From NCBI GenBank assembly GCA_029259915.1, contig JAJDED010000028.1:1-64000 (forward strand): 64,000 bases of DNA, read 5' to 3'. Under the pieces are notes generated by a model that did not search any database, was not told where the DNA came from, and saw nothing but the letters and a program-made list of their open reading frames with translations. Positions 5,783-27,136 of this stretch are shown here, in pieces; position 1 is the first letter of the stretch; every line of letters begins with the position of its first letter. The translations under genes and the position numbers were made by a program. This stretch comes from Planctomycetota bacterium. GTDB lineage: Bacteria; Planctomycetota; Planctomycetia; Pirellulales; Lacipirellulaceae.

Positions 5783-6952
5783 CTATTCATTTGAGAATGA
5801 ATGGCCGTCGTTGATGCTTACCATGTAGGCCATGGCGAATTCGTCGACGTCATTGGTCAGGAAAATGACGTGGCCATCGAGAAATCCGGCGTTCACGCCG
5901 CCAGGGTGCAGACTCCGCGGCGAGGCCGACATGTGGCCTTTGACGCCTATAGTGCTCACTTGCTCCATGCAAGGCATGTGCTGTTCTGCCGCCAAGCTCC
6001 TGAATGAATCGGGAGCATCTGTGCAATCATCAAGTGTATCAAGATTGGGGCCCTGGTTATTTGGCGGCTGGGTTTCTCCCAGACTATCGGGATTGGCCAC
6101 GAAAGGTGCGCGATTTTGTATGGTAAAATCATCTCCAACACCAGTGCCATCGTGGTCGTGCTTCCAGTTTTCTGGGTGCATGTCGAATGCCAACAAGCTA
6201 GCGCCGTTCCACGCTAACGCCCAGGCGCCGCGTTCGTCGGAAGTGTGGTCGAGCGTGCGCACTTCGCTCAGAAGCATGGAAGAGGAAGCACCGTCTTCAA
6301 TACTGGCAAGCGACTGAGGAGTGCCGATCAGCGCGCCTGGATACAGATACTGCAAGTCAACATGAAACGGACTCACGTAGGCTGCATAGTTTCCCTTAGC
6401 AACGTCAACAAAGGTACTAAATATTGTGTTTTCCAGTTTGTAAATCCTTCCTGCCGCAATGTCGCTCGGGCATTGCAGGGTAGGAAAAATTCTTGCTTGT
6501 GGGTTGTTTGGTTGAAAGAAGAGATAGGTATCGAAATTAAATTCAGCGTACAATGCAGATTGTTCCAGATAGGGGAGTACGATCACGATCCAACTGATCT
6601 GCTTTCCACTTCTTGGACTGTAGATATCGACGGGGTGGTCTGTGTCTTGGACAGGTCTCATGATTCCACAGGGGGGGAGTGCGTCGTGCGCGCTTTCATA
6701 TTCCAAAACGGCCAACGCCAATTGTTTCATGTGGTTGACGCATTGGACCCGGCGGGCGGACTCTCGTGCCGATTGGACTGCGGGGAGTAGCAACGAGACG
6801 AGTACGCCGATGATGGCAATCACCACCAAAAGTTCGACGAGTGTGAATCCGCTAGCAGTTCGACGGGCCGCGCAATTCCACCCTCCCCTAACCCCTCCCT
6901 GCAAGGGAGGGGGACTAATGAGACAAAGCCTCGTACCGTTAGCAGCGTGCAT
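5783..6952 (-). CDS. DUF1559 type IV prepilin-like (pseudopilin) protein
   Basis: A 389-aa member of the abundant planctomycete DUF1559 family. It has a prepilin cleavage and methylation motif '[15 protein letters not shown]' (about 35-50) leading into a membrane helix and '[14 protein letters not shown]', and the C-terminal H-x-DG signature '[14 protein letters not shown]' (about 350-364). Prepilin peptidase should cut between Gly35 and Phe36; the function of the family is not established. The leader is unusually long (35 aa) and contains '[13 protein letters not shown]', encoded by an intergenic-type GC-rich repeat (6879-6914). I chose the ATG at 6952; the open frame reaches 7060 but would then overlap the end of the upstream gene. 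Confidence 0.85.
6879..6914. repeat. GC-rich inverted repeat inside the prepilin leader
   Basis: CCCCTCCCT (6892-6900) pairs with AGGGAGGGG (6904-6912) across a 3-nt loop, within CCACCCTCCCCTAA-type sequence. Read on the minus strand it encodes the '[12 protein letters not shown]' segment of the DUF1559 leader. Elements of this form are usually intergenic in other bacteria (from memory). Confidence 0.65.
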
Positions 6953-6968
6953 AGTAAAAAGACAATCG

Positions 6969-9900
6969 TTAGCGGAAGCTAAATCGCGGCCTCTGGTCGA
7001 ACTGTTCCGAAAGCTCTTCCAAGGCGAGGTCGATCGAATTTTCATTCGATGAACCGACATTGTAAGACGACGTTTCGTCTCTGTCGAAGTTGCCGTGAGA
7101 ATTTTTGCTTTCTAGCGAGATATCCGCCCCATTTGCAGACGATTCCAGCGAGAGTTGGAAAACCCCATTCGCAGGATCATCCGTTGCGGAACGAACTGGC
7201 GATTGATTGGTCCCTTGAGGCGTAGCCGGTCGGGGAGAAGTGGTCTGGTTTTGCGACAAACTCAATTGACTTGTCGCGAAAAGAGGCGCGCCTGAGTTTG
7301 CCGTGTTGCTGCTGCTTGATGCTGGAACTGCTACCTGTCCGCCAAGGATTTGGCTTCTGCTAGTTTCGGCTGAAGTTGGTGCTGCAATGTTGGCGCTAGT
7401 CGAAGCTGCTTGAAAAGATTGGGATAGCGCTAATGCTGCACTGGCTGCGGTGCCGTAGTTGGTTTGCCAGATCCCCAAGTCTACGGCATCAACGGCCCCG
7501 TCGGCATTGGCGTCGCCGTCGGCCGCGGTTGCTCCAGTAGTAATTCCGAAACCGCGCTGCCAGGCCAAGAAATCGGTACCATCGACGTCGCCATCGGCAT
7601 CGGCGTCGCCGTTGCTTGGAGTTGGCGCTAGCGCGCCACTATATTGCGATTGCCAAACAGCTAGATCGAGCGGTCCGACCACGCCGTCCAGATCGCTATC
7701 TCCGTCGGTAAGCGTAGCGGGAGAGGTGCCGACTCCCCGTTGCCAAGTAAGAAAATCGAACCCATCGACACTTCCGCTAGCATTGAAGTCTCCGGAAATG
7801 CCGACAACGATTTTCACAGTGCCGATGTTCGATTCCAGATTGAAGTCGTAAGCGGTATAGGTGAATTCGTCGATTCCTGTGAAACCAACATTGGGAGTGT
7901 AATCAAAACCTCCATCAACAGCCAAAGTAAGCGTGCCGTTTGATACGCCTGTTTTGAGAATGGTGACCAACTCGCCGTTTTCCGGGTCGACGTCGTTATT
8001 CAATATGCCGCCTGTTCCGGGAATGACCAGAGCGCTCAAGTTTCCAGAACCTGCAGCGCCACTGCCAGCGGGCACGCTCAGCGCGGCTCCCTCGTTGGTG
8101 TGATACGTGTCGTCTTGCGCAAAGGCGGGACCGTTGACTCCAAATTCGCTCCAGACCCAGGACCACCAGTCGCCGAAGAGGATGGTCACCAAGGTCTCGG
8201 TAGGAAGAGTAGGCGGAGGGGTGGTGAGCGAATCGATAAAACTATCCCAAAGGAACGGATCGGGCGATACAATTCCGCCCGGATAGCAGAAGAACCCTTC
8301 CATTCCCGGTTCAGTACACGCAAATGGATTGGACGTGGGATCGTTGGGGTCGCCAACGAAAAGATCTGAAATAGCCACTCCTTCCAGTGAATACGAAAAC
8401 TCGGGAGCAACGCTGCCGTCCAAGGTCCACACCACCACTTCCACGGTATAGCTACCGGGAGCCAACAGAACCGCCTCGCGCGAGCGGGTTTCGCCAGGCT
8501 GGGCAGCCAATTGATATACGGGAGTACCCTGATCGTTGACAATTGTGGCTAACACGGCAGTCGGGGCCGTCGTTGCCACGGCATCGGCTTGCAATGCAAA
8601 ATGAAAGAGTTGCGGCTTGCCAATATGCAACGTGTGGATTCTCTGGGTCACTCCGTTGCCGATGGTTGCCGATGCCAAGGGGGTAAGTACCGTCGGCTGA
8701 TCGGTGAAGGTAGCAACCAGGGTATAGTTGCCCGTGTCGAACAAGGACCCAGGCGTGGCTGCTTCGACTTTTAAGATGTAGTCACTATCGGGAAGAACGC
8801 CATCGACTTGAATGATATATTCACCACCGCCATTGGAAAGGATCTTTGAGGCGACAAGGGCACCAACGTCGTCGAGAATCGAAATCTGTGGGATCAAACC
8901 GCCTAGGTCAATTGATCGAACCTGCACGGTCAATACGTCGTTCGGTACCGCAGACGTAACGGGTGACTTGACCGCGTAGAAATCGATATCTGTAGCATCG
9001 GTAATACTTCCGATCGTTTCGTAACGTGTACCATCAACGAAACCTATAACTGTTGGCAACACCGTGGCATTGAGAATGACATCGTCAGTGTGTTGATCGT
9101 CATTGAAGAAATCGTCTTCGTCGGCATCAAAAAACTTGGAGATATCTTCTTGCTCCAGAAAGCGAAAATCTCCGCCGGCGATCGCGTTGATAGTTGCCTG
9201 GCCAACTGCGTTGATACCATCGAACTTGACAACAAGCGAGTAGCCGCCGATTCCCATCACTCCCGGATCTGCTCCGCTGATTTCAAAAAAGTAGTTGTCA
9301 TTGGGATCGATCGTAGGAATTTGGACCGTGACCGTTGCCCCAACGGTATTAAACGAACTTGCTTCCCCCAAAAGCTGTTCGTTGCCGTTGTAGACTCGCA
9401 AACGCTGAGAAAGGAGGCTGATCCCGTTCGAGCGGACATCGACCGTCATCGAACCAAAGTAGCCGCCAGGAGCATCGAGCTTGAAGAAATCGAGGTCGGT
9501 ATTGCTGGAGATATCGCCATAGACAATCGAGGGTGCGGTGCCGCTGCTAGCGCCAGCAAGCTCTCCCTTTTTCAACTCTGTGGCATTGATGAACGAATCG
9601 TTGTCCGTAGGCGCATTAGGTCCACCGTCGTCGTCGCCCTCGTTATAATCTGGAGTTCTTGCACCGTGGAGACTTTGGAGAGCGGCAATATCGTTAGCCG
9701 TCGGCAGCCGGACGACTGGTGGGTCGCTGGGAAACAGTGGCGAGTTGGGATCGGTATTGTCCTCTAAACCGAAGACGTTGCCCGCTTCGTGAATCGCAAC
9801 GGCAAAGATATCGTCAAGCGTTTGATAATTGAAATTGGTGTTGAACACCACATCGGCAAACCAAGTGCCCGACACCAAACCATCGATCGGGACCGATACC

Positions 9901-10298
9901 GCTCCCGCACTGGGCGCCATGGCAACCGCACCGACGCGAATTTCTCCAAAGCGTGGATCCTTTTGACTTGAGCCGGGCGTGCCAAAGGGCTGACCTCCAT
10001 CTGACACGACGCCAACATCGGCATTGGTGTTGACCGCCCAAGTTTGAAAGGCCTCAAGAATTTTTGCTTGCCATTGTGCCCTGGGAGCAATGACGTCGAA
10101 CGTGGCGGCCAAGGCATTCGACTGACCAGCGATTTGTGCTCCATCCCCAGCAAAGCTCAAAGTCAGGTGGGCATCGGTGCCGTTGAGAAACCCTGCACCG
10201 TCAAGCAGCATGCGAGGCTCCAGCGACTCGAAAGCGAGACGCGACCGGGCCGTTTTGCAGCGTGTTCGAGTTTTTTGTTTTCTTAAAAATTTACGCAT
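6969..10298 (-). CDS. LEPR-XLL exported protein with degenerate matrixin-like domain, PPC repeats and dockerin repeats
   Basis: A 1109-aa exported multidomain protein. The basic N terminus carries the planctomycete motif 'LEPRMLL' (26-32), which takes the place of a classical signal. A matrixin-like region follows with '[11 protein letters not shown]' (170-180): the first His and the catalytic Glu are present, but the second zinc His is Asn174. Next come pre-peptidase C-terminal (PPC)-type beta domains (about 235-360, 410-540, 555-665), a cadherin/VCBS-type domain (about 730-830, '[15 protein letters not shown]'), and two dockerin-like modules (about 836-955, '[19 protein letters not shown]' and '[17 protein letters not shown]'). 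It ends in a Ser/Asn-rich tail. It probably acts at the cell surface. The ATG at 10298 is preferred over an in-frame TTG at 10307. The peptidase is probably inactive. Confidence 0.85.
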
Positions 10299-10622
10299 GA
10301 TGAACAATCACGGGATCGAATTGATCTGTGAAATCGAGGCACGAATTCGACGATCCTGATAATTGCCAGGGAAGAAACTCTGAAAGCATCTTCATCGAGC
10401 AGAATCCGCGCATGCGTACCCTGCCTGGAAGGAGTAGCCGAAAAAGTCTGTTCCGAGCGCCAATAATTCCTTGAGAATGGGTCCGCCATATTCCCCTGCG
10501 CTAGATGGTCCCATTATAGCGCTTCATCATTCAGGTCTCAATCGAATGGCTAAATTCCTGTGAAAAGGCTTCGTAATAGCCGGTATGTAACGGTTTCCCG
10601 GGCTAATGATACTGCGAATCAA
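10299..10622. other. Intergenic region upstream of the LEPR gene
   Basis: About 324 nt between two minus-strand genes. It should hold the promoter of the LEPR protein gene and the 3' end of the kinase transcript. I see no convincing terminator, RNA gene or repeat. Confidence 0.5.
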
Positions 10623-15697: not shown

Positions 15698-16669
15698 ATG
15701 TTCGATACGATCGGTCCTCTTGCGAAGAAAGCGCTGCTTGTCGGCACGGTTTGTACCATCGCATTTGGCATGATGGATAGGCGGGCGGATGCGGTGACAT
15801 TGGCGTCCACCCAATTGGGTGCGGTGGGATTGAATGGCGGCAACGGGATCACCCCAGTCGTTCCTGTACTTGGTTGGAGATTCGAGATTGCTGATCCGTT
15901 CCAGGTCCAGCAGATCGGGGGGCATATGAAAGGTTCCGCCACACAGGGCCTCCCTCCGTATAAAGATATCTTCGGAGCGATTGTCCCACTAGCTTCGGTG
16001 ACTTCCTTGCCCACACCGGGACCTGGGGGAACGCCGTTCGACCCGGCGGCTGCGATCGCTTCCACGACCTTCACACCGCCGGGATCCAACACTGCACCGT
16101 TCGCAAGCCAAAGCGAAGACTTTCGTGTGCCTCTGGACGTCACCTTGGCACCGGGAGCTTACGCGCTGATGTTCGGCACGGGCATGTTTGGCACCACCGG
16201 GAATGCCGCAATGCCGGCCAACGCAGATCAGCCATTTATTGCTCCCACCACGGCGGACTCTTTCATCAAGTGGCAACAGCCATTTGGCAGCACAGAATTC
16301 CAGTGGCTGCCGCCTGCATCGATTCCATTTGCCCGGATGCGGTTTGTGATTGAAGGAATATCGCTTGGTCCTCCATCTCTCACTGCCGATTTTGATAGCG
16401 ACGGGGACGTTGACGACATTGACCTGCTCATTTGGGATGCGTTTTATGGTTTAGGAAACGGAGCAGATACCGACGGTGATGGCGACAGTGATGGCACGGA
16501 TTTTCTCACCTGGCAACGAGAGCATACGGGGCCCGGTGCTCCGGTCAGTGTTGCCGTGCCAGAACCGACATCGATACTTCTAGTCGGACTGGCAAGTCTC
16601 GGTGTTGCGTGGCCTTGCCGTCTAAGAAGGACACCTGAACTCGGAACTATGAATTGGAAAGGGATTTAA
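15698..16669 (+). CDS. PEP-CTERM protein with dockerin-type calcium repeats
   Basis: A 323-aa exported protein: signal peptide (about 1-32), beta-rich body, dockerin-like pair of calcium loops (about 228-275, 'ADFDSDGDVDDIDLLIWDA' and 'DTDGDGDSDGTDFLTWQR'), and a PEP-CTERM tail 'VPEPTSILLVGLASLGVA' with PEP near 288. The basic end is extended ('RLRRTPELGTMNWKGI'), longer than usual. An exosortase not present in this window would process it. The ribosome-binding site AGGGAGAG precedes the ATG. It heads a same-strand run of PEP-CTERM genes and ends 2 nt before the next start. The N-terminal domain is not recognised. Confidence 0.88.
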   Translation: MFDTIGPLAKKALLVGTVCTIAFGMMDRRADAVTLASTQLGAVGLNGGNGITPVVPVLGWRFEIADPFQVQQIGGHMKGSATQGLPPYKDIFGAIVPLASVTSLPTPGPGGTPFDPAAAIASTTFTPPGSNTAPFASQSEDFRVPLDVTLAPGAYALMFGTGMFGTTGNAAMPANADQPFIAPTTADSFIKWQQPFGSTEFQWLPPASIPFARMRFVIEGISLGPPSLTADFDSDGDVDDIDLLIWDAFYGLGNGADTDGDGDSDGTDFLTWQREHTGPGAPVSVAVPEPTSILLVGLASLGVAWPCRLRRTPELGTMNWKGI

Positions 16670-16671
16670 TC

Positions 16672-17460
16672 ATGAAACCAATGCTGATCAACTTGGTTGC
16701 GCTAGGGTCGTTAGTTATTTCCGGGACAGCCTTTGCAGGCAATCTCGGCGTGCGGGGATTGATTTTTGATAATGATGGCGTGACTCCGCTTCCAGGGACA
16801 GGGCTGACAGACGTCCTCACGGCCGATCCGGCATTACCCTTCGGTTATGTCCAGGCCGTCTACGCTGGTCTCGACGGGTTCATTGATCCTCCGAACCCCG
16901 ACGGCACAACCACTGGTGACGATTCGTTACTTGAGCGGACCGAAGCCGGCGTGCAATTCTTCACTGCCATTGGCGAAGGGTTTCCGTTTGGTCCTGCGGG
17001 AAATTTCTTTGAGGATTTTAATCACTCGCTCCCCGCGGGAAGCAACTTTTATGTGAGAGTGTGGAACAAGACTGCTCCCGCGACCTCCGACTTCTACGGA
17101 GATTCGACCACCTACACACTGGTGAGCGAGTTCTTCGACAGCAACAACTTTGGAACCTGGTCGACAAACATCCCGGTCGCCAGTGGACCAACCGCTGATT
17201 TTGACGGTGACGGCGACGTCGACAGCGCCGACGTGGTCGTTTGGCAATCGTCCTATGGCGCTGGCGCCGGGGCAGATGCCGATGGTGATGGTGACAGCGA
17301 CGGCGCCGATTTTCTTGCTTGGCAACAGCAATTCACTGGCCCCCCGTCGCTGGCCAGTGTTGCCGTGCCGGAGCCTGCTGGGGTGTGTCTGCTAATACTT
17401 GGCGCCGTTTTTCTGGCATGCAATCGACACTTAGCTAATGTAAGGAGCAACAAGTCGTGA
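16672..17460 (+). CDS. PEP-CTERM protein with dockerin-type calcium repeats
   Basis: A 262-aa exported protein: signal peptide (about 1-19, 'LINLVALGSLVISGTAFAG'), a body with 'GVRGLIFDNDGVTPLPGTG' and 'FYVRVWNKTAPATSDFYGD' of unknown fold, a dockerin-like pair (about 170-215, 'ADFDGDGDVDSADVVVWQ' and 'DADGDGDSDGADFLAWQQ') and a PEP-CTERM tail (PEP near 233). The ATG at 16672 has GGAAAGGGA upstream; an in-frame TTG at 16654 overlaps the previous gene and is less likely. The stop overlaps the next GTG start by GTGA, so these two genes are translationally coupled. Confidence 0.86.
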   Translation: MKPMLINLVALGSLVISGTAFAGNLGVRGLIFDNDGVTPLPGTGLTDVLTADPALPFGYVQAVYAGLDGFIDPPNPDGTTTGDDSLLERTEAGVQFFTAIGEGFPFGPAGNFFEDFNHSLPAGSNFYVRVWNKTAPATSDFYGDSTTYTLVSEFFDSNNFGTWSTNIPVASGPTADFDGDGDVDSADVVVWQSSYGAGAGADADGDGDSDGADFLAWQQQFTGPPSLASVAVPEPAGVCLLILGAVFLACNRHLANVRSNKS

Positions 17461-19130
17461 GTTATTTCAAACAGTTTTGTAAGCCACGGTTCAGACGATT
17501 CGGTTTCCAAGCGGCCACTATTTTAACGTGGATACTGGGCACCAACACCAAAGCTGCCGAATTGAATCCGTCGCCGACAAACTTCTTTACAATCACGATC
17601 AACAGCGGCGAACTCGGTGAAAACCACGCCGACCCTTATCAGAATCTTGGAACCATCGACGTCGCCGGCGGCACGCTTGAGAACCATGAAACTTTTGAAA
17701 TCCTCAACTTTGGCGTTCTTTCCAATCAGTTGGGAGGAACCATCAACAACTTCAAAACCATTCAATCCGAGGACTTGGGTACAACGATTTCCAATGCCGG
17801 CGTGTTCAATAATTTTGATTCTCTCGGGAATGGATACCGATTTACCAATCATCCTACTGGCGTCCTCAACAACAACACCGGAGCGACGACAATCACCAAG
17901 TTTATCTTTACCAACAACGGAACCGTCAACAATACAAATGTTTTTAGCAACGGCACCGCCTCTGACTTAGGCCTGTTTGACAACAATGCGGGAGCGACAG
18001 TCAACAGTTTTCCAGGGAGCGAGTTCAAAAATTTCGGCGATCTCAATAACCGAGGAACCTTCAATAACGAAGGGAGCTTTCGCAGTTTGCCTCCTTTCAC
18101 CGGTATCTCTGGAAGAGTGACTAACGACGGCGTTTTTAACAATCTGGCTGGGGCGTCGTTAATCAATGCAATCCGGTTCAATAGCGGCGGAATTCTGAAT
18201 AACGATGGCATGCTCTCGACCAGCCACTTCCTGGCAAACCTACCCACCGGCGTGATCAACAATAACGCCACTGGCTCGGTAACCATCAATTCTGTGCTGA
18301 GCAATTTTGGCGCAATTAACAATGCGGGAGAATTCATTTTTAGTTTTGGAGGTTCCATGCGCGACAACGGCACGTACACGCAAACAGCCGGTGTCACTCA
18401 GAACCGTAACAAATCGCTGTCCTCCTCGGTATTCGACTTTCAAGGGGGTAAGCTTTTCGGAAGCGGCCATTTGACCGGATCGGTTATGCTTGGGGGAAGC
18501 GCCATCATCGAACTCGATTCGACCTTTACCAGTCAGGTGGGATCCTTCTCATTCGACTCCTTTGCAATGACTGGCGGCACCGTGCAATTGGACCTTGGCG
18601 GTCTCGTAGCCGGAATCGATTTCGATCAGTTAAACGTCCTCGGCAACGCGAGCCTTGCGGGGACACTCGATGTCGCGCTCATCGACCCTGGTACGGGCCT
18701 GTTCGCGCCAGTAGCGGGCGACTCGTTCGACATTCTCACTGCGACCGGCGGAGTAACCGGCACGTTCACCACGGAGAATTTGCCAGTCCTTACAGGCGGA
18801 TTGAGTTGGGACGTGGTTTATGGCGCAAACGCTGTGACGCTTCAGGTGTTATCAACAACTTTGCCCGCCGATTTTGATGGCGATGGCGATGTTGATAGCG
18901 CCGACTTGGTTGTGTGGCAATCGTCCTATGGCGTCGATGCCGGGGCGGATGCCGATGGCGATGGCGACAGCGACGGCTTCGACTTTCTCGCCTGGCAACA
19001 ACAGTTCACCGGGCCCGCTGCGGTTCCGTCCGCAACTTCGGTACCGGAGCCTTCGGGAATCGTATTGCTCGTAGTGGGAAGTCTACTTTTCGTCTCGCGG
19101 GCTGGATACTCGTTTAATCATCATGTTTGA
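17457..19130 (+). CDS. PEP-CTERM/dockerin protein with Asn-rich beta-helix-like repeats
   Basis: A 557-aa exported protein. After a signal peptide (about 1-33) residues 45-300 form a repetitive Asn/Gly/Phe-rich stretch with a recurring pattern of about 20 residues ('GVFNNFDSLGNG', 'GTVNNTNVFSNGT', 'GTFNNEGSF', 'GVINNNATGSV'), suggestive of a parallel beta-helix or adhesin. The next module, 'LDVALIDPGTGLFAPVAGD' (about 405), is shared with the gene at 19171. A dockerin pair (about 468-515) and PEP-CTERM tail (PEP near 530) end the protein. The start is GTG at 17457 with TAAGGAG 10 nt upstream, overlapping the previous stop. It probably forms part of the cell surface or matrix. Confidence 0.85.
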   Translation: MSYFKQFCKPRFRRFGFQAATILTWILGTNTKAAELNPSPTNFFTITINSGELGENHADPYQNLGTIDVAGGTLENHETFEILNFGVLSNQLGGTINNFKTIQSEDLGTTISNAGVFNNFDSLGNGYRFTNHPTGVLNNNTGATTITKFIFTNNGTVNNTNVFSNGTASDLGLFDNNAGATVNSFPGSEFKNFGDLNNRGTFNNEGSFRSLPPFTGISGRVTNDGVFNNLAGASLINAIRFNSGGILNNDGMLSTSHFLANLPTGVINNNATGSVTINSVLSNFGAINNAGEFIFSFGGSMRDNGTYTQTAGVTQNRNKSLSSSVFDFQGGKLFGSGHLTGSVMLGGSAIIELDSTFTSQVGSFSFDSFAMTGGTVQLDLGGLVAGIDFDQLNVLGNASLAGTLDVALIDPGTGLFAPVAGDSFDILTATGGVTGTFTTENLPVLTGGLSWDVVYGANAVTLQVLSTTLPADFDGDGDVDSADLVVWQSSYGVDAGADADGDGDSDGFDFLAWQQQFTGPAAVPSATSVPEPSGIVLLVVGSLLFVSRAGYSFNHHV

Positions 19131-19170
19131 TTTCAATCACAAAACTAATTTTCGCAGGGAGAACAAACTT

Positions 19171-22170
19171 ATGTGTTCTTGTTATTGCAACCGTTTAGCA
19201 ACCGTTTTGATTTTGTTTGCAATGGCTTCGCCAGCTTTGGCCGTGCAGACCGTTTACACCGATGAAGCCACCTATTTGTCCGACCTCGCAACGCTAGGTT
19301 ATGTCTCAGCCACCGAAGACTTTGAGGATGACAACTTCTGGGGGTTGCTGGAACCTACCGCAACAACCACCGTGCCGGGCGTGACCAGTCAACGGATTGA
19401 GTGGATTGGGCTTGGCGGTGGAGTCAATCTTAAAAGCAGTGAGGCGCGGACTGGCGATTGGGGGTTGATAACTTCTCCAGTACACTCGCCGTTCGACGGG
19501 TTTCTTGCGACAGCGGAACAGCCACTATTTGGGGTTGGCGGTTGGCTTCGGTCGAGCAATGCGGGCGCCGGTGGGCAAAACGATATTTCGGCATTTCTCA
19601 ATGGATCGACTGTTGCGGCAGATATCTTCCAAGTGCCAACCACCCCGTACACGTTCTGGGGGGTGATCGACACGGCGGGGATCACCAGTCTTCAGTTTGA
19701 AACGGAACCTGTCGAGCCTCCCGAGCCCGGCTCGGGCGATCCGATCGATCCTTCCAAGACAATTTCTCTTGATGATTTTACGTTTGGATTTGCCACCGCT
19801 CCTACGTTACGCGAGCTGGGAACCGATTGGTCGAATGCAGCTGGCGGGACTTACACAACCGGCGACAACTGGAACGGCGGTGCAGTGCCCGCTGTGAGTG
19901 ATAATGCATTGTTCCATCTCGGCAGCGCTGCGTCATATACAGTCAACTTTTCGCAAAACGAAACGGCCAGCCAGGCGGTGATCGGCAACGACAAAGTAGC
20001 ATTCGACTTGGGTGGATTTCAATACAACCTCACCGAGCCAAACATCACACGCGAGTCGTTGATCGTCTCTGAGCGCCCCGGTGATGTCGGCGAGCTAACG
20101 ATTACCAATGGAACTATCGCCGGTGCAAACGTGGTCGTTGCGCACTCGACAACTTCCATGGGGCACATGACGGTTGGCACCGGAGCAGCGGTCAACTTGA
20201 CCGGCGCGATGCGTGTCGGCTCCGGCGGCAACGGCACGCTGGATATCCACAACGGCGGCACGCTCACCAGCGGGACCGGCAACTTCATCGGCCAACTCGG
20301 CGGCAACGGCATCGTGAATGTCGATGGCGCGAGCACGGCTTGGACCCTGTCCGGCTTTGGTGGGACGATCACAGTCGGTTCCGGCGGCGGGACGGGTACG
20401 CTGAACATCACCGCCGGCGCCACCGTGACGGCCGGATCGATCGTCGGCGGCAAACTTACGGACAATGGACTGAGCAGCAACACAACTGGCTCTGGAGCGA
20501 TCAACGTTTCTGGCACAGGCACCACGCTGAACGCTGGCTCGATCACCCTTGCCCAAGACGCCAACGGCGCGCCAAGCTCGATGAACATCAGCGGCGGCGC
20601 ATTGGTCGTGGGGGCAAGCGGCTTGATCGCGATCTCCTCTGATGCCGACGTCGTGCTCGACGGCCCTGGCTCAAGCTGGACTATGAACATCGGCGGCTCT
20701 TCGCGCGGCACGCTCCACGTAGGCCTGGGCGACCAGAACGGCACCTTTGCCAGCTTCCCACCGCCGCCCTTGCACACTGGTACACTCACCATCCAGAACG
20801 GCGCCTCCGTGCAAGCCGAACAAACCTTCATCGGACGCACTCGCACGGGTCGCGGTGTTCTTACCGTCACTGGAGTCGGTTCGTTGTGGTCGTCCGGTTC
20901 GCAGTTTTCGGGCAACACGTTTATTGGTCACGATGGTGACGGCGAACTCAACGTTCTCGCGGGCGGCTCCGTGCAAACCGGCCAAGCCTTCATCGGCCGC
21001 CTCGGCCTGCGCGACCAACTGCGCGGTGTCGCGAATGTCGACGGTGCCGGCTCAAATTGGACGACCCCCTCGACAATCTGGGTTGGTTTTAACAACGACC
21101 CGCTGGTCTACATCGGCGCGGGACTGTTCTTTGCCGAGGGTGTACTGAATGTCACCAACGCTGGTTCAGTCAACGCGGGGCAATTGTCGCTTGCGGGGCG
21201 TAAGGTTTCCAAGGGCGTTGTGAATATCACGGGAACCGGATCTGTGGTAGCGGCCAATTCGGTAACCTTCGGCAAGACCTTCACTTCCACATTCACTTTT
21301 GGTTCCAATGCCGAGATGAATATCTCGGCGGGTGGGTTGCTCGACGTGACAGGAAACATGGATATCCACCATGGCATCCTCACGCTCAATGGTGGCACGG
21401 TAAATGCTGCGAATCTTCAGCTTCACGGAGAGAATCTTATCGAACCAGGTTCCCCCAGCGAAACGGGAGACACACGAGTCACATTGACTGGCACGGGGCA
21501 AATCAATGCCAACGTGCTCAACTCCGGCGGATTCATTTCTCCGGGACTATCGGCCGGAGTTCTCGATATCAATGGCGACCTGACCCAGCTTTTTGATGGC
21601 ACGCTCGATATCGAGCTTGGGGGTTTACTACAAGGCACCGAACACGATTTGTTTAATGTTTCTGGCATTGCCAACTTGGGGGGAATGCTTGACGTATCGC
21701 TCATCGATCCAGGAACTGGTCTGTTTGCGCCCGCGTTGGGCGACTCGTTTGACATCCTCACTGCCGCAGGCGGAGTGAGCGGCAAATTTGCAGGGCTCAA
21801 CTTTCCCGCCTTGGGAGGAGGATTGGGTTGGGGCGTGACCTACGGACCCAACACGGTCTCGGTTCGAGTTCTCACGGTCGCTTTGTCGCCCGACTTTGAT
21901 TTTGATGGTGACGTAGACGGTGCCGACCTGGCCGTGTGGGAAGCGTCGTATGCCGCCGGCGCCGGAGCGGATGCCAACGGCGACTTCAACAGCGACGGTT
22001 TCGATTTTCTCGCCTGGCAACGACAGCTCACTGGCCCGGGACCGCCGGTCAGCGTTGCCGTGCCGGAGCCCAATTCTAAGTGGACATTCTTGTCCGGTTT
22101 AGTCATACTGCTTCTATTCAAGGGGGGTCGTCTCGAATCACCGGTAGCCCGTTTTTCCTGCTTTGTATGA
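19171..22170 (+). CDS. Large PEP-CTERM/dockerin protein with autotransporter-like repeats
   Basis: A 999-aa exported protein: signal peptide (about 1-25, 'LATVLILFAMASPALAVQ'), an N-terminal domain (30-220), then long Gly/Thr/Asn-rich repeats (about 220-800) with recurring 'GNGTLDIHNGG', 'GTGTLNITAGA' and 'LTIQNGASVQAEQTFIGR' units as in autotransporter-associated beta strands. A module 'LDVSLIDPGTGLFAPALGD' (about 845), a dockerin pair (about 905-950) and a PEP-CTERM tail (PEP near 965) follow. The tail after the helix lacks the usual Arg cluster ('FKGGRLESPVARFSCFV'). I use the ATG at 19171 with AGGGAGA upstream; an in-frame ATG at 19123 overlaps the previous gene. Confidence 0.85.
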   Translation: MCSCYCNRLATVLILFAMASPALAVQTVYTDEATYLSDLATLGYVSATEDFEDDNFWGLLEPTATTTVPGVTSQRIEWIGLGGGVNLKSSEARTGDWGLITSPVHSPFDGFLATAEQPLFGVGGWLRSSNAGAGGQNDISAFLNGSTVAADIFQVPTTPYTFWGVIDTAGITSLQFETEPVEPPEPGSGDPIDPSKTISLDDFTFGFATAPTLRELGTDWSNAAGGTYTTGDNWNGGAVPAVSDNALFHLGSAASYTVNFSQNETASQAVIGNDKVAFDLGGFQYNLTEPNITRESLIVSERPGDVGELTITNGTIAGANVVVAHSTTSMGHMTVGTGAAVNLTGAMRVGSGGNGTLDIHNGGTLTSGTGNFIGQLGGNGIVNVDGASTAWTLSGFGGTITVGSGGGTGTLNITAGATVTAGSIVGGKLTDNGLSSNTTGSGAINVSGTGTTLNAGSITLAQDANGAPSSMNISGGALVVGASGLIAISSDADVVLDGPGSSWTMNIGGSSRGTLHVGLGDQNGTFASFPPPPLHTGTLTIQNGASVQAEQTFIGRTRTGRGVLTVTGVGSLWSSGSQFSGNTFIGHDGDGELNVLAGGSVQTGQAFIGRLGLRDQLRGVANVDGAGSNWTTPSTIWVGFNNDPLVYIGAGLFFAEGVLNVTNAGSVNAGQLSLAGRKVSKGVVNITGTGSVVAANSVTFGKTFTSTFTFGSNAEMNISAGGLLDVTGNMDIHHGILTLNGGTVNAANLQLHGENLIEPGSPSETGDTRVTLTGTGQINANVLNSGGFISPGLSAGVLDINGDLTQLFDGTLDIELGGLLQGTEHDLFNVSGIANLGGMLDVSLIDPGTGLFAPALGDSFDILTAAGGVSGKFAGLNFPALGGGLGWGVTYGPNTVSVRVLTVALSPDFDFDGDVDGADLAVWEASYAAGAGADANGDFNSDGFDFLAWQRQLTGPGPPVSVAVPEPNSKWTFLSGLVILLLFKGGRLESPVARFSCFV

Positions 22171-22252
22171 AAAGTGGTTGCATGTGTTGGAACTGTGTTG
22201 AAACGAATGCAAGGGAGTGATCGTCACCTAGTTTTCTTAATGGGGGTGTGTC

Positions 22253-23122
22253 ATGAGCGTTCTAAGAAATTCTGTTTTGGTTTCATTGTGTGTCTTGTTT
22301 CTGGCAGATTTATCGTTTGCCACTTTGGTTGACAATGGTGATGGCACGATTACACAGATTCGAACCGACGGCTCGCAACTGATGTGGCTTCAAGATGCCA
22401 ACTATGCGGCCACGTCGGGCTATCCTGACTACGAAACGGTGACGGAGTACTGCTACACACCCAACCCGGCCACATGTTTTTCTATAGCGCCGCAGATTGG
22501 TTTGACCCATGCGGATGCCATTACCTGGGCAAGCACACTTGATTTTGCAGGCCATACCGACTGGCGCATGGCTTCTGGATTAAATCCGGACGGATCGGGT
22601 CCAGTAATTGGTTTCGCAGGGCTAGGGGCAATAGGCGAGATGATAAACCTCACTGTGACGGAGGGAATATGGCGCGATGCACCGGGCCCTTTTTCCAACG
22701 TACAACTTTCCTATTGGACAAGTTCGTCAGGTCCAGACTTTGACGATGGTATCTGGGACCATCTCGTGTTGAACAGTTCCCAAGCTGTCTTGCAGTCCAA
22801 GCAGGTAGTTGTGGGACCAGACATCTTCGTACTCAGAAGATTCGCAGGCTGGGCAGTGCGCGATGTCACCGTTGTGCTGGACACCGCGGATTTTGACGGC
22901 GATGGTGACGTAGACAGTGCCGACCTGATCGTGTGGCAATCGTCCTATGGCGTCAACGCCGGGGCCGATGCCGACGGCGACGGGGAAAGTGATGGCGATG
23001 ATTTCCTGATTTGGCAGCAGCAATTTACCGGATCCGTCCCCATTTTCGCTGTGCCGGAACCAAGCACACTTACCTATATTTCCCTGGTTTTTATGGGATT
23101 TTTAGGCGTTTTTCGGCGTTAA
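22253..23122 (+). CDS. Lcl/DUF1566-domain PEP-CTERM protein with dockerin repeats
   Basis: A 289-aa exported protein: signal peptide (about 1-23), a DUF1566 (Lcl C-terminal) type domain (about 25-205) seen from 'VDNGDGTITQIRTDGSQLMW', 'ADAITWASTLDFAGHTDWRM' and 'YWTSSSG', a dockerin pair (about 215-260, 'ADFDGDGDVDSADLIVWQ'), and a C-terminal 'VPEPSTLTYISLVFMGFLG' with PEP near 268 and terminal 'FRR'. DUF1566 domains occur in bacterial surface proteins and resemble a C-type lectin fold. The ATG is preceded by GGGGGTG. It is separated from neighbours by gaps of 80-130 nt. Confidence 0.87.
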   Translation: MSVLRNSVLVSLCVLFLADLSFATLVDNGDGTITQIRTDGSQLMWLQDANYAATSGYPDYETVTEYCYTPNPATCFSIAPQIGLTHADAITWASTLDFAGHTDWRMASGLNPDGSGPVIGFAGLGAIGEMINLTVTEGIWRDAPGPFSNVQLSYWTSSSGPDFDDGIWDHLVLNSSQAVLQSKQVVVGPDIFVLRRFAGWAVRDVTVVLDTADFDGDGDVDSADLIVWQSSYGVNAGADADGDGESDGDDFLIWQQQFTGSVPIFAVPEPSTLTYISLVFMGFLGVFRR

Positions 23123-23256
23123 TCGCCCTCTCTTGAGATTCTATGTCGGTTCACGGCCTCATTATCTGCTCTCCATGTTGGCAGGGCATTTTCTTCACAT
23201 TTGGGTGAAGAGTTCTCGTGCCTCAATTCGGATGAGTTAAACGGGGAAGTGATACG

Positions 23257-26200
23257 ATGAAGCGTTTGCAGGGAAATTTGGTGGCTTGGAAGAAAATTTT
23301 CTTCTTCGTGGTATTGGCTGAACTAGCTGCTCTAGCTGCCCCCACCATGGCCCAAATTCCGATTCAGTGGACGAACCCTGTAACGGGTCCCACGGCTGGG
23401 GATTGGTTCAACGCCGCGAATTGGAGCACGGTAGTTCCCACTGCGTTAGATTCCGCTCAGATCAACAATGGTGGCGAAGCCCGAATCACTGGCAGCGTGG
23501 GGGTCAACCGCATCGGGGTCGGCTTGAACGGTGGCACAGGATTTTTGGCAAGTACAACTCCAGCGATCTCCATTTCAACTATCGAAGATTTTGATACGGG
23601 AGAAACCACTGGAGCATTCGCGTTAGGTCCTCAAACGGTCACCAGTAACGGCACCACGACGATAACCGATGCCACTAGCATTATCATTGGCACGGGAGGA
23701 ACAGGCGATCTGGATGTCGGTCAGGCAGCCGCCACGCTGGGTGCCACGGGCAACGCAACCGGCGTACTTACTATTGAACGTGTTCCTTTTGTGCAGGTCG
23801 CCGACGACGCCGACGTTGGTCATTCAAGCGGTTCAGCAACTGCCAACTCAAACGGAACATTCAATGCGCATAATATCGGCACGCTCGACGTAGGGAAATT
23901 TATGAATGTTGGCGAGGCAGCTGATTCCTCAGATTTTAGAAGTGCCACGGGAGCGTTTAATTCAAGCTTCGTCAACCTGCTGATGGTGAAAGACGATTTT
24001 ATCGTTGGCCGAGCATTTAGCGGAGGTGGAACAGGCACCAGCAACGCGACGGCGAGCATTGTCGATGCCGGAACGATCGACGCCGGAGGAGATTTCGTGG
24101 TCGGACGCGCAACGGCCAAAGGTGGCGGCACTGCCCAAACAAGCGCGACGTTAGACATCCAAAGAACCACGACACTACTCGTGGCAAACAACTTCAGCGT
24201 AGGGCAAGTCACCAGCGCGCTCAAGCTACCAGGGGGGACGGTAGTAAGCGGCCAGGCCGATTCCTTGAATATAACCGCCACACTTACAAACGTTGCCAAC
24301 ATTACCACAGGCACGGGCATGTTCGTCGGGCGAGCCTTTACCAGAGATAACTCCAAGGGCAGTGCGACTGGAACTTTAACCATCGACACCGCCACCTCAG
24401 TAACCGTTGGCGCAGATCTGGACGTGGGACAAACTGGTAGTACCGGCATTGCTACCGACTTGGGTCTCAGTACAAGCGGTACAGGCAACTTAACGGTTCG
24501 CAATGTGACCGGGACATTTGGCATCGCCGGAGACATTGACCTCGGCAAAGCGGGCAGCGTTGCCAACACCACCACGCAAGGCAATGGAACGCTGTTGGTT
24601 GAAAATGTTGGCGCGCTGAATGTTGCTTTCGATTTGGACGTGGGGCAAGTTAGCGGTGCCGGGCAGTCGTCTGGCGTTGGCATGGCCACGATTCGCACAA
24701 CTCCCAGTATCATCGTTGGCAACGATCTCGACGTCGGCTTTACTTCGGGTTCTTCAACCAGCTCGAACAGCGGCAATGGAACTCTGGCGATCTCCGATGC
24801 GACAGTCTCGATCGGTTTTGCCAATCCGTTGCTTCCCGGCTCTCTCAGCTTGGGCAATGCAGGCGTAGCGCTCGGAACACGCGCACAAGGCCAGGGAATT
24901 GCAACTTTTGAACGATCGTCCATTACGGTTGCAAACCGCGTAGCCGTGGGTAGACTCTCCGGCGGAAGTTTAGAAGCTACGACAACTTCAAGTGGGACAC
25001 TCAATCTTATCGATAGCTCGGTCACGACTCCGACCTTCGAGGTCGCCAATGTCCTTTTAGGTACCGCAGGAACCGTCGACGGAACAGTTAATCTTGAGTC
25101 GTCACTTGTGAATGTCACCGGCGCAATGACACTGGAACCGGGGTCGCTATTCGACTTTGGTCTGTCGGGCGCGACGAAAGCTGATGGAACCGGCGCATTG
25201 GGACAATATAGCGCGATCAACTCTGGCAGTGCAAATCTTGCCGGTGATTTGAACGTGTCGCTACTGGATGGTTATGTTCCGGCAACGACCACTTCATTCG
25301 AAATCATTACGGGATTGCGAGCAGGTAATTTTGACAATGTCACTTTCCCGGTGGTACCAGGATTGATGTGGCGGATCAACTACAACCCCAATTCGGTAGT
25401 GATTCGAGCGCTGGTCGGACTCACAGCCGATTTCAACAACAGTGGAATCGTCGACGCGGCCGATCTGGCGATTTGGCAGTCGTCTTACGGCATCAATGCG
25501 TTGGCCGATGCCGACAACGATGGCGATTCGGATGGGGAAGACTTCATCGAATGGCAACGTCAGCTCGGACTCAGCCCGCCGATCAGCGCCTCGACTGTGG
25601 CAGTTCCCGAGCCTTCCACCTTTGTGTTGGCACTCATGTCGGCCATGGGAATATGGTCGCAGCGCAGATCCATTCACAACAAGAGCAACCCGCTTAAAAC
25701 CAAAACACACCACCAGCAGTCTCTTGAGAAAGCTGAATCGTTACCCTGCGGATTCACGCTCGTTGAGCTGCTGGTGGTGATTTCTATTATCGGCGTGTTG
25801 ATCGCGCTGTTGCTGCCCGCTGTGCAGGCCAGTCGAGAAGCGGCTCGAAAAACCCAGTGCGTCAACAATCTCAAGCAAATTGGCTTGGCGTTTCAAAATC
25901 ATGATGGTGCACACGGAGTGTTTCCAAGCGGGGGCTGGAACTGGAACCACCAACCTACATATGACAATGGTCGTCCCGTCTCAGGGGCGGACCAGCATGC
26001 CGGGTGGGGGTTCCAAATCCTCCCTTATATCGAAGCACAGAATGTTTGGAATGCAGGGCCTATCGAAGCGATTGGAGCGGAATTGAGCGTCTATTTTTGT
26101 CCTTCGCGTCGACCGCCACAATCGATTGTCCGCCCCGACAAATATATTCCCGCACTCACCGGGAGCACAATCCGCCATGCTTTGTGTGATTATGCCACCT

Positions 26201-26583
26201 CGAATCGTGAAATGACTGGCGTGCTGCGTCGCTTCGAACCCATCGGACTAAGGGAAGTCACCGACGGCACCACCCATACGCTGTTGGCCGCGGACAAACG
26301 ATTGAATCTTGCCCACTTGGGAGAAGATCAAGACGACGACAATGAAGGTTACACCGTCGGTTGGAACGAAGATACGATTCGTCGTACCGACGAATCGCCT
26401 GCCCCCGATCACTTTGGTGACGGCGATGGCGACAAACTCTTTGGATCTTCACACCCGGGAATAATTAATGCGGCGCTGGTCGACGGTTCGGTGCGCACTG
26501 TGTCTTTCAATATTGATAAAGACGTGTTTGAACTTTTGGGCAATATTTCCGACGGAGAGCAGGTGGACGATGAAACTCTCTAA
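23257..26583 (+). CDS. Fusion: PEP-CTERM/dockerin surface protein joined to DUF1559 prepilin-like protein
   Basis: One uninterrupted 1108-aa frame. Residues 1-35 are a signal peptide; 35-700 are repetitive beta-strand units ('LDVGQ', '[11 protein letters not shown]', '[13 protein letters not shown]') as in autotransporter-like proteins. A dockerin pair lies at about 724-770 and a PEP-CTERM signal at about 784-810 (PEP, helix '[13 protein letters not shown]', then 'SQRRS'). After a 22-residue basic linker a complete prepilin motif '[15 protein letters not shown]' (Gly near 832) begins a full DUF1559 domain with '[14 protein letters not shown]' and the C-terminal '[14 protein letters not shown]' (about 1065). 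Predicted topology is outside, helix, short cytoplasmic linker, helix, outside. No good internal start was found between the parts (only ATGs at 25636 and 25645 inside the first helix, without ribosome-binding sites). The end overlaps the next gene by 14 nt. Confidence 0.85.
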
Positions 26584-27136
26584 AAATACCTTCGTGGCTG
26601 GACTACTCGTTGGATGTCTGTGTCTATCTGGATGCAGTAAAACTCCGGTAGGCGAGCTTGCTTCTGCACTTTCAGACGAAGACAACGGCGTACGTTACGA
26701 AGCCGCAAAGCAACTGGCAAAGTATGGCCCCGAAGCGGTGGAAGCCGTGGATGAATTGGCTGTGACACTTGCCGACCCCGATCCCAGGGTTCGTTATCGG
26801 AGTGCCAAGGCGCTGAGCAAGATCGGCATCGGCGCCGCCCCTGCGGCCGATTCGTTGGTACTTGCGTTGAACAATGCCGACGACGAGATGCGTTACTACC
26901 TCGTCAAAACATTGGCAAACATCGAGGATGCCGCGGTTGGAGCCGTTGAAGAATTGAAACAAATTTTGCAGTCCGACACAGACGCTCGAAACCGTTATTA
27001 CGCCGCCAAGGCGTTAGGGAAGATCGGCAAGGAAGCCCGCGATGCAACTACTGCATTGGAAGCCGCGGGGAAAGACCCAGATAAAAAAGTTCGCAAAGCA
27101 GCAGGGGAAGCACTCGAAAAAGTGCGTGCGTCCTAA
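26570..27136 (+). CDS. HEAT-repeat lipoprotein
   Basis: A 188-aa protein. The lipoprotein signal '[15 protein letters not shown]' (7-21) ends in lipobox LSGC, so the mature protein should be lipid-anchored at Cys21. The rest is a run of HEAT/armadillo-type repeats ('[20 protein letters not shown]', '[13 protein letters not shown]', '[13 protein letters not shown]', '[12 protein letters not shown]'), a protein-binding scaffold. The ATG at 26570 lies inside the end of the fusion gene (14-nt overlap) with GGAGAGCAGG upstream, so translation is coupled to the DUF1559 part. The open frame upstream of 26570 is a shadow. Its partner is unknown; the coupling suggests work with the prepilin-like domain. 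Confidence 0.85.

Follow-up and report, generated by a model that had tools for sequence, protein, structure and literature searches.

A recurrent planctomycete gene fusion that joins PEP-CTERM and prepilin-type DUF1559 proteins, and its possible processing as a polyprotein

Several described systems come close to the subject of this report, an open reading frame (ORF) at positions 23257-26583 of a 64,000-nucleotide stretch of DNA from a Planctomycetota bacterium (assembly GCA_029259915.1, contig JAJDED010000028.1; the whole stretch is called the window below). Type IV prepilins and pseudopilins (TIGR02532, PF07963) are processed by prepilin peptidase (Peptidase_A24), which acts on the cytoplasmic face of the membrane. 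The window protein resembles them in a prepilin motif above cut-off, a long modelled N-terminal helix of its second half and a peptidase encoded in the genome; unlike their short cytoplasmic leader peptide, however, its 'leader' as read would be an exported protein of 831 residues. A bacterial precursor that is exported and gives rise to two proteins is known from Bradyrhizobium, where the cytochrome b/c1 polyprotein FbcH is cut between its two membrane parts by a single signal peptidase cut. In the present case the proposal is for two cuts, one on each side of the membrane and each made by a different sorting protease. The DUF1559 (PF07596) and H-X9-DG (TIGR04294) family is represented in the window protein by a complete domain above cut-offs, but DUF1559 is normally encoded by a gene of its own. 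Published genome studies count 68 DUF1559 paralogues of unknown function in Planctopirus limnophila (PMC10632474) and 74 genes in Rhodopirellula baltica, where they are called solute binding proteins (PMC2754498).

The remaining relative is the PEP-CTERM/exosortase (EpsH) system (TIGR02595, PF07589, PF09721), with which the window protein shares the PEP box, the hydrophobic helix, the basic cluster and an exosortase in the genome. In the published description of that system the signals lie near the extreme C-terminus, a few long tails are thought to be possibly non-functional, and PEP is predicted at the periplasm-membrane interface (PMC1569441). The signal of the window protein is internal instead, with 322 further residues after PEP. 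Because it lies away from the extreme C-terminus, we class the protein, on its sequence, as the carrier of a PEP-CTERM-like internal signal and not as a standard PEP-CTERM protein. The parts of the open PMC literature that were covered contained no description of a PEP-CTERM-prepilin fusion.

The window ORF is one stop-free frame of 1108 codons in which a surface protein with signal peptide and PEP-CTERM tail runs on into a complete prepilin-type DUF1559 protein. This bears out a preliminary description of the stretch, which had seen a single ORF joining a PEP-CTERM surface protein to a complete DUF1559 prepilin-like protein and had placed PEP near residue 784. The parts of the ORF are as follows.

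23257-26583, forward strand: fused ORF of 1108 amino acids, with signal peptide, repeat body, dockerin-like segment, PEP-CTERM tail, basic loop, prepilin motif and DUF1559.
23257-23355, forward strand: predicted signal peptide of 33 residues, recognized by eye from the translation.
25423-25569, forward strand: dockerin-type-I-like segment, recognized by eye from the sequence.
25606-25614, forward strand: PEP motif, residues 784-786, a candidate exosortase site (translation; Pfam match to residues 782-804).
25615-25659, forward strand: predicted first membrane helix (PEP-CTERM helix), Kyte-Doolittle 15-residue maximum 1.47.
25636-25647, forward strand: in-frame ATGs at 25636 and 25645, the sole ATGs between PEP and Gly-Phe, both within the first helix.
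25660-25749, forward strand: predicted cytoplasmic basic loop or prepilin leader of 30 residues, +6/-2 by charge count.
25750-25755, forward strand: Gly832-Phe833 (GFTLVEL), a candidate prepilin-peptidase site; PF07963 (residues 832-853, 25.2 bits, cut-off 21.2) and TIGR02532 (26.5 bits, cut-off 16.3) are above cut-off.
25759-25914, forward strand: predicted long N-terminal pilin-like helix of the DUF1559 part (AlphaFold2, helix residues 4-55 of 277).
25825-26520, forward strand: DUF1559 domain PF07596, residues 857-1088 (E 2.9e-34; 119.8 bits, cut-off 23.3).
26440-26505, forward strand: H-X9-DG C-terminal motif TIGR04294, residues 1062-1083 (27.5 bits, cut-off 19).

PEP, the hydrophobic helix and the basic cluster together occupy residues 784-805. 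From QRRS (residues 802-805) to Gly832 the spacing is 26 residues; the short stop-free junction described earlier was thus found, and its length of about 22 residues had to be corrected. The prepilin motif starts at residue 832 and would follow a short N-terminal leader only if translation began at an internal start. No dockerin was among the Pfam matches of the window protein. In the fused protein of one relative (G052, set B below), PF00404 matched at E 5.7e-4 with 20.5 bits, below the cut-off of 22.9.

The preliminary description had treated the fusion as singular. Our search for other PEP-CTERM-prepilin junctions found the architecture to be recurrent, with at least 31 fused ORFs, checked by script and by eye, in 27 genomes that carry six family codes (f1, f4, f13, f14, f15 and f17) within one order. 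A fusion was counted only if the in-frame upstream part had PEP and a hydrophobic helix, because long frames upstream of DUF1559 occur without a PEP-CTERM part; chance open frames of that kind (L017, L037, L129 and L228-L230) were left out. Fused ORFs are also present in genomes of one contig (G023, G039, G290) or two contigs (G052), and those of G005 and G021, both among the 31, are cut by contig ends. A 32nd fused ORF, in G022, was left uncounted, its junction and length being equal to those of the G008 fusion: these genes (L044, G008:C79; L060/L163, G022:C19) have an identical junction and a frame of 1046 amino acids in genomes with different genus codes, which would reflect either recent transfer or cross-binning of contigs.

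With a junction profile (A1) we searched 43 genomes of the family and 396 genomes of the order, and with a DUF1559 profile made from fused genes (A2) 396 genomes of the order. At order level, A1 matched 55 of the 396 genomes at E<=1e-40, split pairs included, and A2 matched 115 of 396 at E<=1e-70. Up to 82 (A1, family), 8 (A1, order) and 6 (A2, order) candidates were scored per genome, and the family search with A1 gave best matches only. The fusion counts are lower bounds because only this part of the candidates was scored. A search of 392 genomes of the phylum, with about nine candidates scored in each, matched the window's genome only (E<=1e-38); with so few scored candidates this does not show that the fusion is absent outside the order. 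We conclude that the fusion is almost certainly real, conserved, recurrent and translated through.

Grouped by their upstream and DUF1559 parts, the 31 ORFs form sets A (4 ORFs, including that of the window), B (10), C (9) and D (5), and three stand singly. The grouping was direct for 26 of them; G017, G346, G376, G290 and contig 19 of G035 were assigned by locus. Forty loci (L223-L262) were fetched for the locus of sets B and C (the B/C locus); in 30 of them the next ORF belongs to one family, and fused and split pairs occupy the same position. This next ORF is of the Kelch type with an 'AHFPWL' start, and Pfam found Kelch repeats in the G052 copy. A small ORF is present in 14 of the 40 loci and is PEP-CTERM-tailed in G052. 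Among the fusions themselves, L223 has a 112-codon linker and L224 an odd motif.

Related genomes were compared for a stop codon between the halves, initially by searching 39 genomes with the window protein. The locus was recognized by the gene that follows the fusion and by the glycosyltransferase-like ORF next to it:

26570-27136, forward strand: HEAT-repeat protein gene whose start looks lipoprotein-like by reading; it overlaps the end of the fused ORF by 14 nucleotides.

The order DUF1559, HEAT gene, glycosyltransferase-like gene is common to the window, G008, G002, G001, G005, G022, G015 and G052. The orthologue is fused in G005, with the same HEAT and glycosyltransferase neighbours (residues 721-1105 are 62% identical; the first half of the ORF is truncated by the contig end), and in G052, where the PEP-CTERM part and DUF1559 share one frame upstream of the same neighbours. 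It is split in three other genomes. In G008 the PEP-CTERM gene ends with a TGA that overlaps the ATG of DUF1559, which lies in a different frame, in G002 a single TGA separates the two parts in the same frame, and in G015 the two genes overlap as TAATG. The frame is open in G001, yet it still contains the leader and the ATG that are present in the split relatives. The DUF1559-HEAT-glycosyltransferase trio of this genome (L033, 4.5-15.5 kb) is joined to a PEP-CTERM protein other than that of the window, and the protein that best matches the first half of the window ORF is encoded about 8.5 kb upstream; judged by gene order, partners have been exchanged near one locus. Upstream of the trio in G022, no adjoining PEP-CTERM tail was detected, and the counterpart of the window ORF's first half is on a different contig.

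To place the fused genes among their split relatives, we used two quick or FastTree trees. The first held 106 DUF1559 sequences, 31 fused and 75 with an adjoining separate PEP-CTERM gene, the latter including a few doubtful distant pairs; the second held 221, adding 115 without a detected PEP-CTERM neighbour. The 106-sequence tree has at least 19 changes between the fused and split labels, 12 of them forced by supported branches, and the 221-sequence tree has 20, of which 13 are forced. The fused label was clustered on the tree (0 of 500 shuffles as low). The direction of change is not readable from the trees. They show that fused and split states replaced each other many times, with both putative processing signals kept in the fused genes.

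The genomes also show the PEP-CTERM/DUF1559 gene pair to be common in this planctomycete order, with the two genes adjacent and at some loci mostly abutting or overlapping. The DUF1559 start overlaps the PEP-CTERM stop or lies within 3 nucleotides of it in 11 of the 17 split pairs at the B/C locus in which a PEP tail was detected (20 of 72 over all split pairs measured). The frame bias of the split pairs, in which 47 of 72 stops are in frame with the prepilin site, was not used; it is at least partly ascertainment, because the A1 searches read through stops in one frame.

The junction was then compared between fused genes. All 31 fused ORFs, which had been selected for PEP and for the prepilin motif, have PEP, a helix, a net-positive loop and [GA]FxxxE. 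A less biased set consists of the 22 frames longer than 500 amino acids among those listed by a DUF1559-only search: 19 were fused, PEP was present in all 19, and the remaining three were split pairs beside a chance open frame. The 15-residue Kyte-Doolittle maximum of the first helix ranges from 1.43 to 2.61 across the 31 ORFs. The net charge of the loop per residue is 0.34 in frame versus 0.04 in each other frame, the in-frame value being the highest in 27 of 31. This supports the view that both loop ends are coding, which they would be in split genes too. The topology predicted in the preliminary description is consistent with these loops, all net positive and with a charge specific to the reading frame. 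We made no use of an argument from the chance of finding loops without a stop, since the absence of a stop is what fused loops are selected for.

Nine pairs of fused genes were compared, and in the two closest the putative signals are kept and the loop has diverged. In G376/G290, identity is 95% in the body, 90% in PEP and helix, 38% in the loop (26 aligned residues), 100% in the prepilin helix and 95% in DUF1559; the corresponding values for G036/G071 are 83%, 86%, 33% (12 residues), 100% and 93%.

We also modelled the DUF1559 part. The AlphaFold2 model (59 sequences in the input alignment; mean predicted local distance difference test score 88.7) combines an N-terminal helix of 52 residues with a globular domain. 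A Foldseek search of the PDB with this model returned nothing at E<=0.001, and its best match, a gonococcal type IV pilus chain, was non-significant (E 0.71, 59 columns). By sequence, five pilin-type entries of the PDB match, solely around the N-terminal helix.

Both candidate proteases are encoded in the window's genome. There is one exosortase (G000:C38; PF09721, E 9.8e-57; TIGR02602, 127.2 bits, cut-off 105.55) and there are two Peptidase_A24 genes (G000:C45 and C47; PF01478 above cut-off), neither of which NCBIfam named as prepilin peptidase above cut-off. Among the fusion-carrying genomes, 27 of 27 have an exosortase and 26 of 27 a Peptidase_A24 match above cut-off, the one fused genome without a match (G055) being 68% complete.

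In the window, the fusion is the last of six consecutive PEP-CTERM-tailed genes on the forward strand (15698-26583). The others lie at 15698-16669, 16654-17460, 17457-19130, 19123-22170 and 22253-23122; the first four overlap, and the ORF at 19123-22170 contains T5SS/PEP-CTERM repeats (TIGR04393, E 3.5e-25). Glycosyltransferase-like and ABC-exporter-like genes, named by reading, come after this run. A second surface-protein/DUF1559 pair occupies 5783-10307 on the reverse strand, where a 1112-amino-acid ORF (6969-10307) overlaps the start of a DUF1559 ORF (5783-7060) by 92 nucleotides. The larger ORF has an LEPR-like start and dockerin-like repeats, and no PEP-CTERM tail was seen in it; three of the four nearest tree rows of the DUF1559 ORF (L068, L069 and L196) adjoin PEP-CTERM genes.

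We propose that the window ORF is the single-gene form of a PEP-CTERM plus prepilin-type DUF1559 pair, and that it encodes a hairpin precursor with candidate cuts at both sites. Taken as a whole chain that includes both cuts, this reading falls only a little short of being probable. One precursor would be translated, and its signal peptide would export the surface part. The PEP-CTERM helix would cross the membrane from outside to inside, the basic loop would remain cytoplasmic, and the prepilin helix would cross back, so that DUF1559 would end up outside; the order outside, helix 1, basic loop, helix 2, outside is a positive-inside topology. Both cuts are inferred from the motifs: prepilin peptidase would cut Gly832-Phe833 on the cytoplasmic side, and exosortase would cut at PEP on the outer side. 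The inner cut would put the PEP-CTERM tail near a C-terminus again, and exosortase could therefore follow, which would reconcile the fusion with the C-terminal rule. The products would be the same two mature proteins as from the split genes. The preliminary description had suggested that they are made in fixed ratio. The changed partner in G001 and the lone DUF1559 in G022 speak against a functional pair in fixed ratio, and the suggestion is weakened because DUF1559 also occurs alone. Both cases fit two independent proteins made together better, and cutting apart would therefore be expected.

Several observations weigh against the two-cut proposal. The Pfam PEP-CTERM match of the window protein (18.8 bits) is under the cut-off of 20.7, and TIGR02595 gives the protein no listing at E<=1; of two other fused proteins, L226 (G290) is above both cut-offs (Pfam 21.8 bits, TIGR02595 24.3 bits) and L231 (G052) scores 16.0 bits with Pfam. 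At the prepilin site, the -1 residue is Gly in 24 of the 31 ORFs and Ala instead in seven. In the seven less close fused pairs the aligned loop spans 3-20 residues at 17-71% identity, too short for a safe measure, and in two of these pairs the loops resemble each other more than the bodies do. Of the 221 DUF1559 rows, a non-random sample with some rows near contig ends, 115 had no detected PEP-CTERM neighbour, and therefore nothing shows that the halves need each other. The presence of the proteases may discriminate little, since it was surveyed in fusion-carrying genomes only.

An alternative that we consider unlikely, and yet the most serious, is that prepilin peptidase alone cuts. The DUF1559 half would mature normally. 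The PEP-CTERM half would remain anchored in the inner membrane, its cytoplasmic tail lengthened, or its exosortase signal would be inactive away from the C-terminus. The position of known PEP-CTERM signals near the extreme C-terminus (PMC1569441) argues for it, as does the lower conservation of PEP-CTERM and helix than of the prepilin helix over the nine pairs (29-90% versus 77-100%; 29-57% and 77-97% in the seven less close ones). All 19 fused ORFs listed by the DUF1559-only search nevertheless have an intact PEP, and exosortase could act second on a tail that is near a C-terminus again. It is distinctly less plausible that the fusion is never cut and functions as a single protein that has two outer domains and a pair of membrane helices. 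Fused states do persist in lineages, as their clustering indicates, and the loop could be a mere linker; in the two closest pairs, however, the loop diverges and the full prepilin consensus and the PEP box are retained, and sister genomes carry the two halves as separate genes, with one half swapping its partner.

We consider it improbable that an internal start mainly gives the two products, with DUF1559 made from its own start in the PEP-CTERM tail or loop and the fusion as a by-product. Such a start is possible in the window, where the in-frame starts after PEP are one GTG, one TTG and the two ATGs at 25636 and 25645, all inside the helix and none after it. G005 has an in-frame GTG, the leader and ATG of split relatives survive in the fused frame of G001, 13 of the 31 fused loops have one or more ATG, GTG or TTG after the helix, some of them leader-like (G001, G035 contig 19, G186), and the DUF1559 start of split relatives often lies at the PEP-CTERM stop. 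However, 18 of the 31 have no such codon after the helix, and three fused genes (G019, G014 and G010 contig 75) have none from PEP to the prepilin site. Moreover, with no stop between the halves, every ribosome that translates the first half must yield the fusion, and an internal start could only add to it. An own start for DUF1559, raised as a possibility in the preliminary description, cannot explain the fusion away. An assembly error or a decaying gene unique to the window's genome has a negligible probability. The window lies in a 64-contig draft assembly; the fused orthologues in G005 and G052 rule out an error or lost stop unique to this assembly, fused ORFs occur in the one- and two-contig genomes named above, and all downstream motifs of the gene are intact.

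Extended from the window to its relatives, the two-cut proposal would define a recurrent class of bacterial surface polyproteins: hairpins cut by prepilin peptidase inside and by exosortase outside, with the basic membrane fragment discarded and with split and fused genes interchangeable. We put this forward tentatively, as possible but short of probable. PEP-CTERM tails have been described as C-terminal and prepilin signals as N-terminal, and the joined genes are a natural test of cutting at internal sites and of its order. They also bear on annotation, in which one half of such a gene can hide the other, and they tie together two large and poorly understood planctomycete families, the PEP-CTERM proteins and DUF1559. 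If the proposal is true, PEP-CTERM signals would work away from the C-terminus, or would become C-terminal only after the prepilin-peptidase cut, the two enzymes acting in order.

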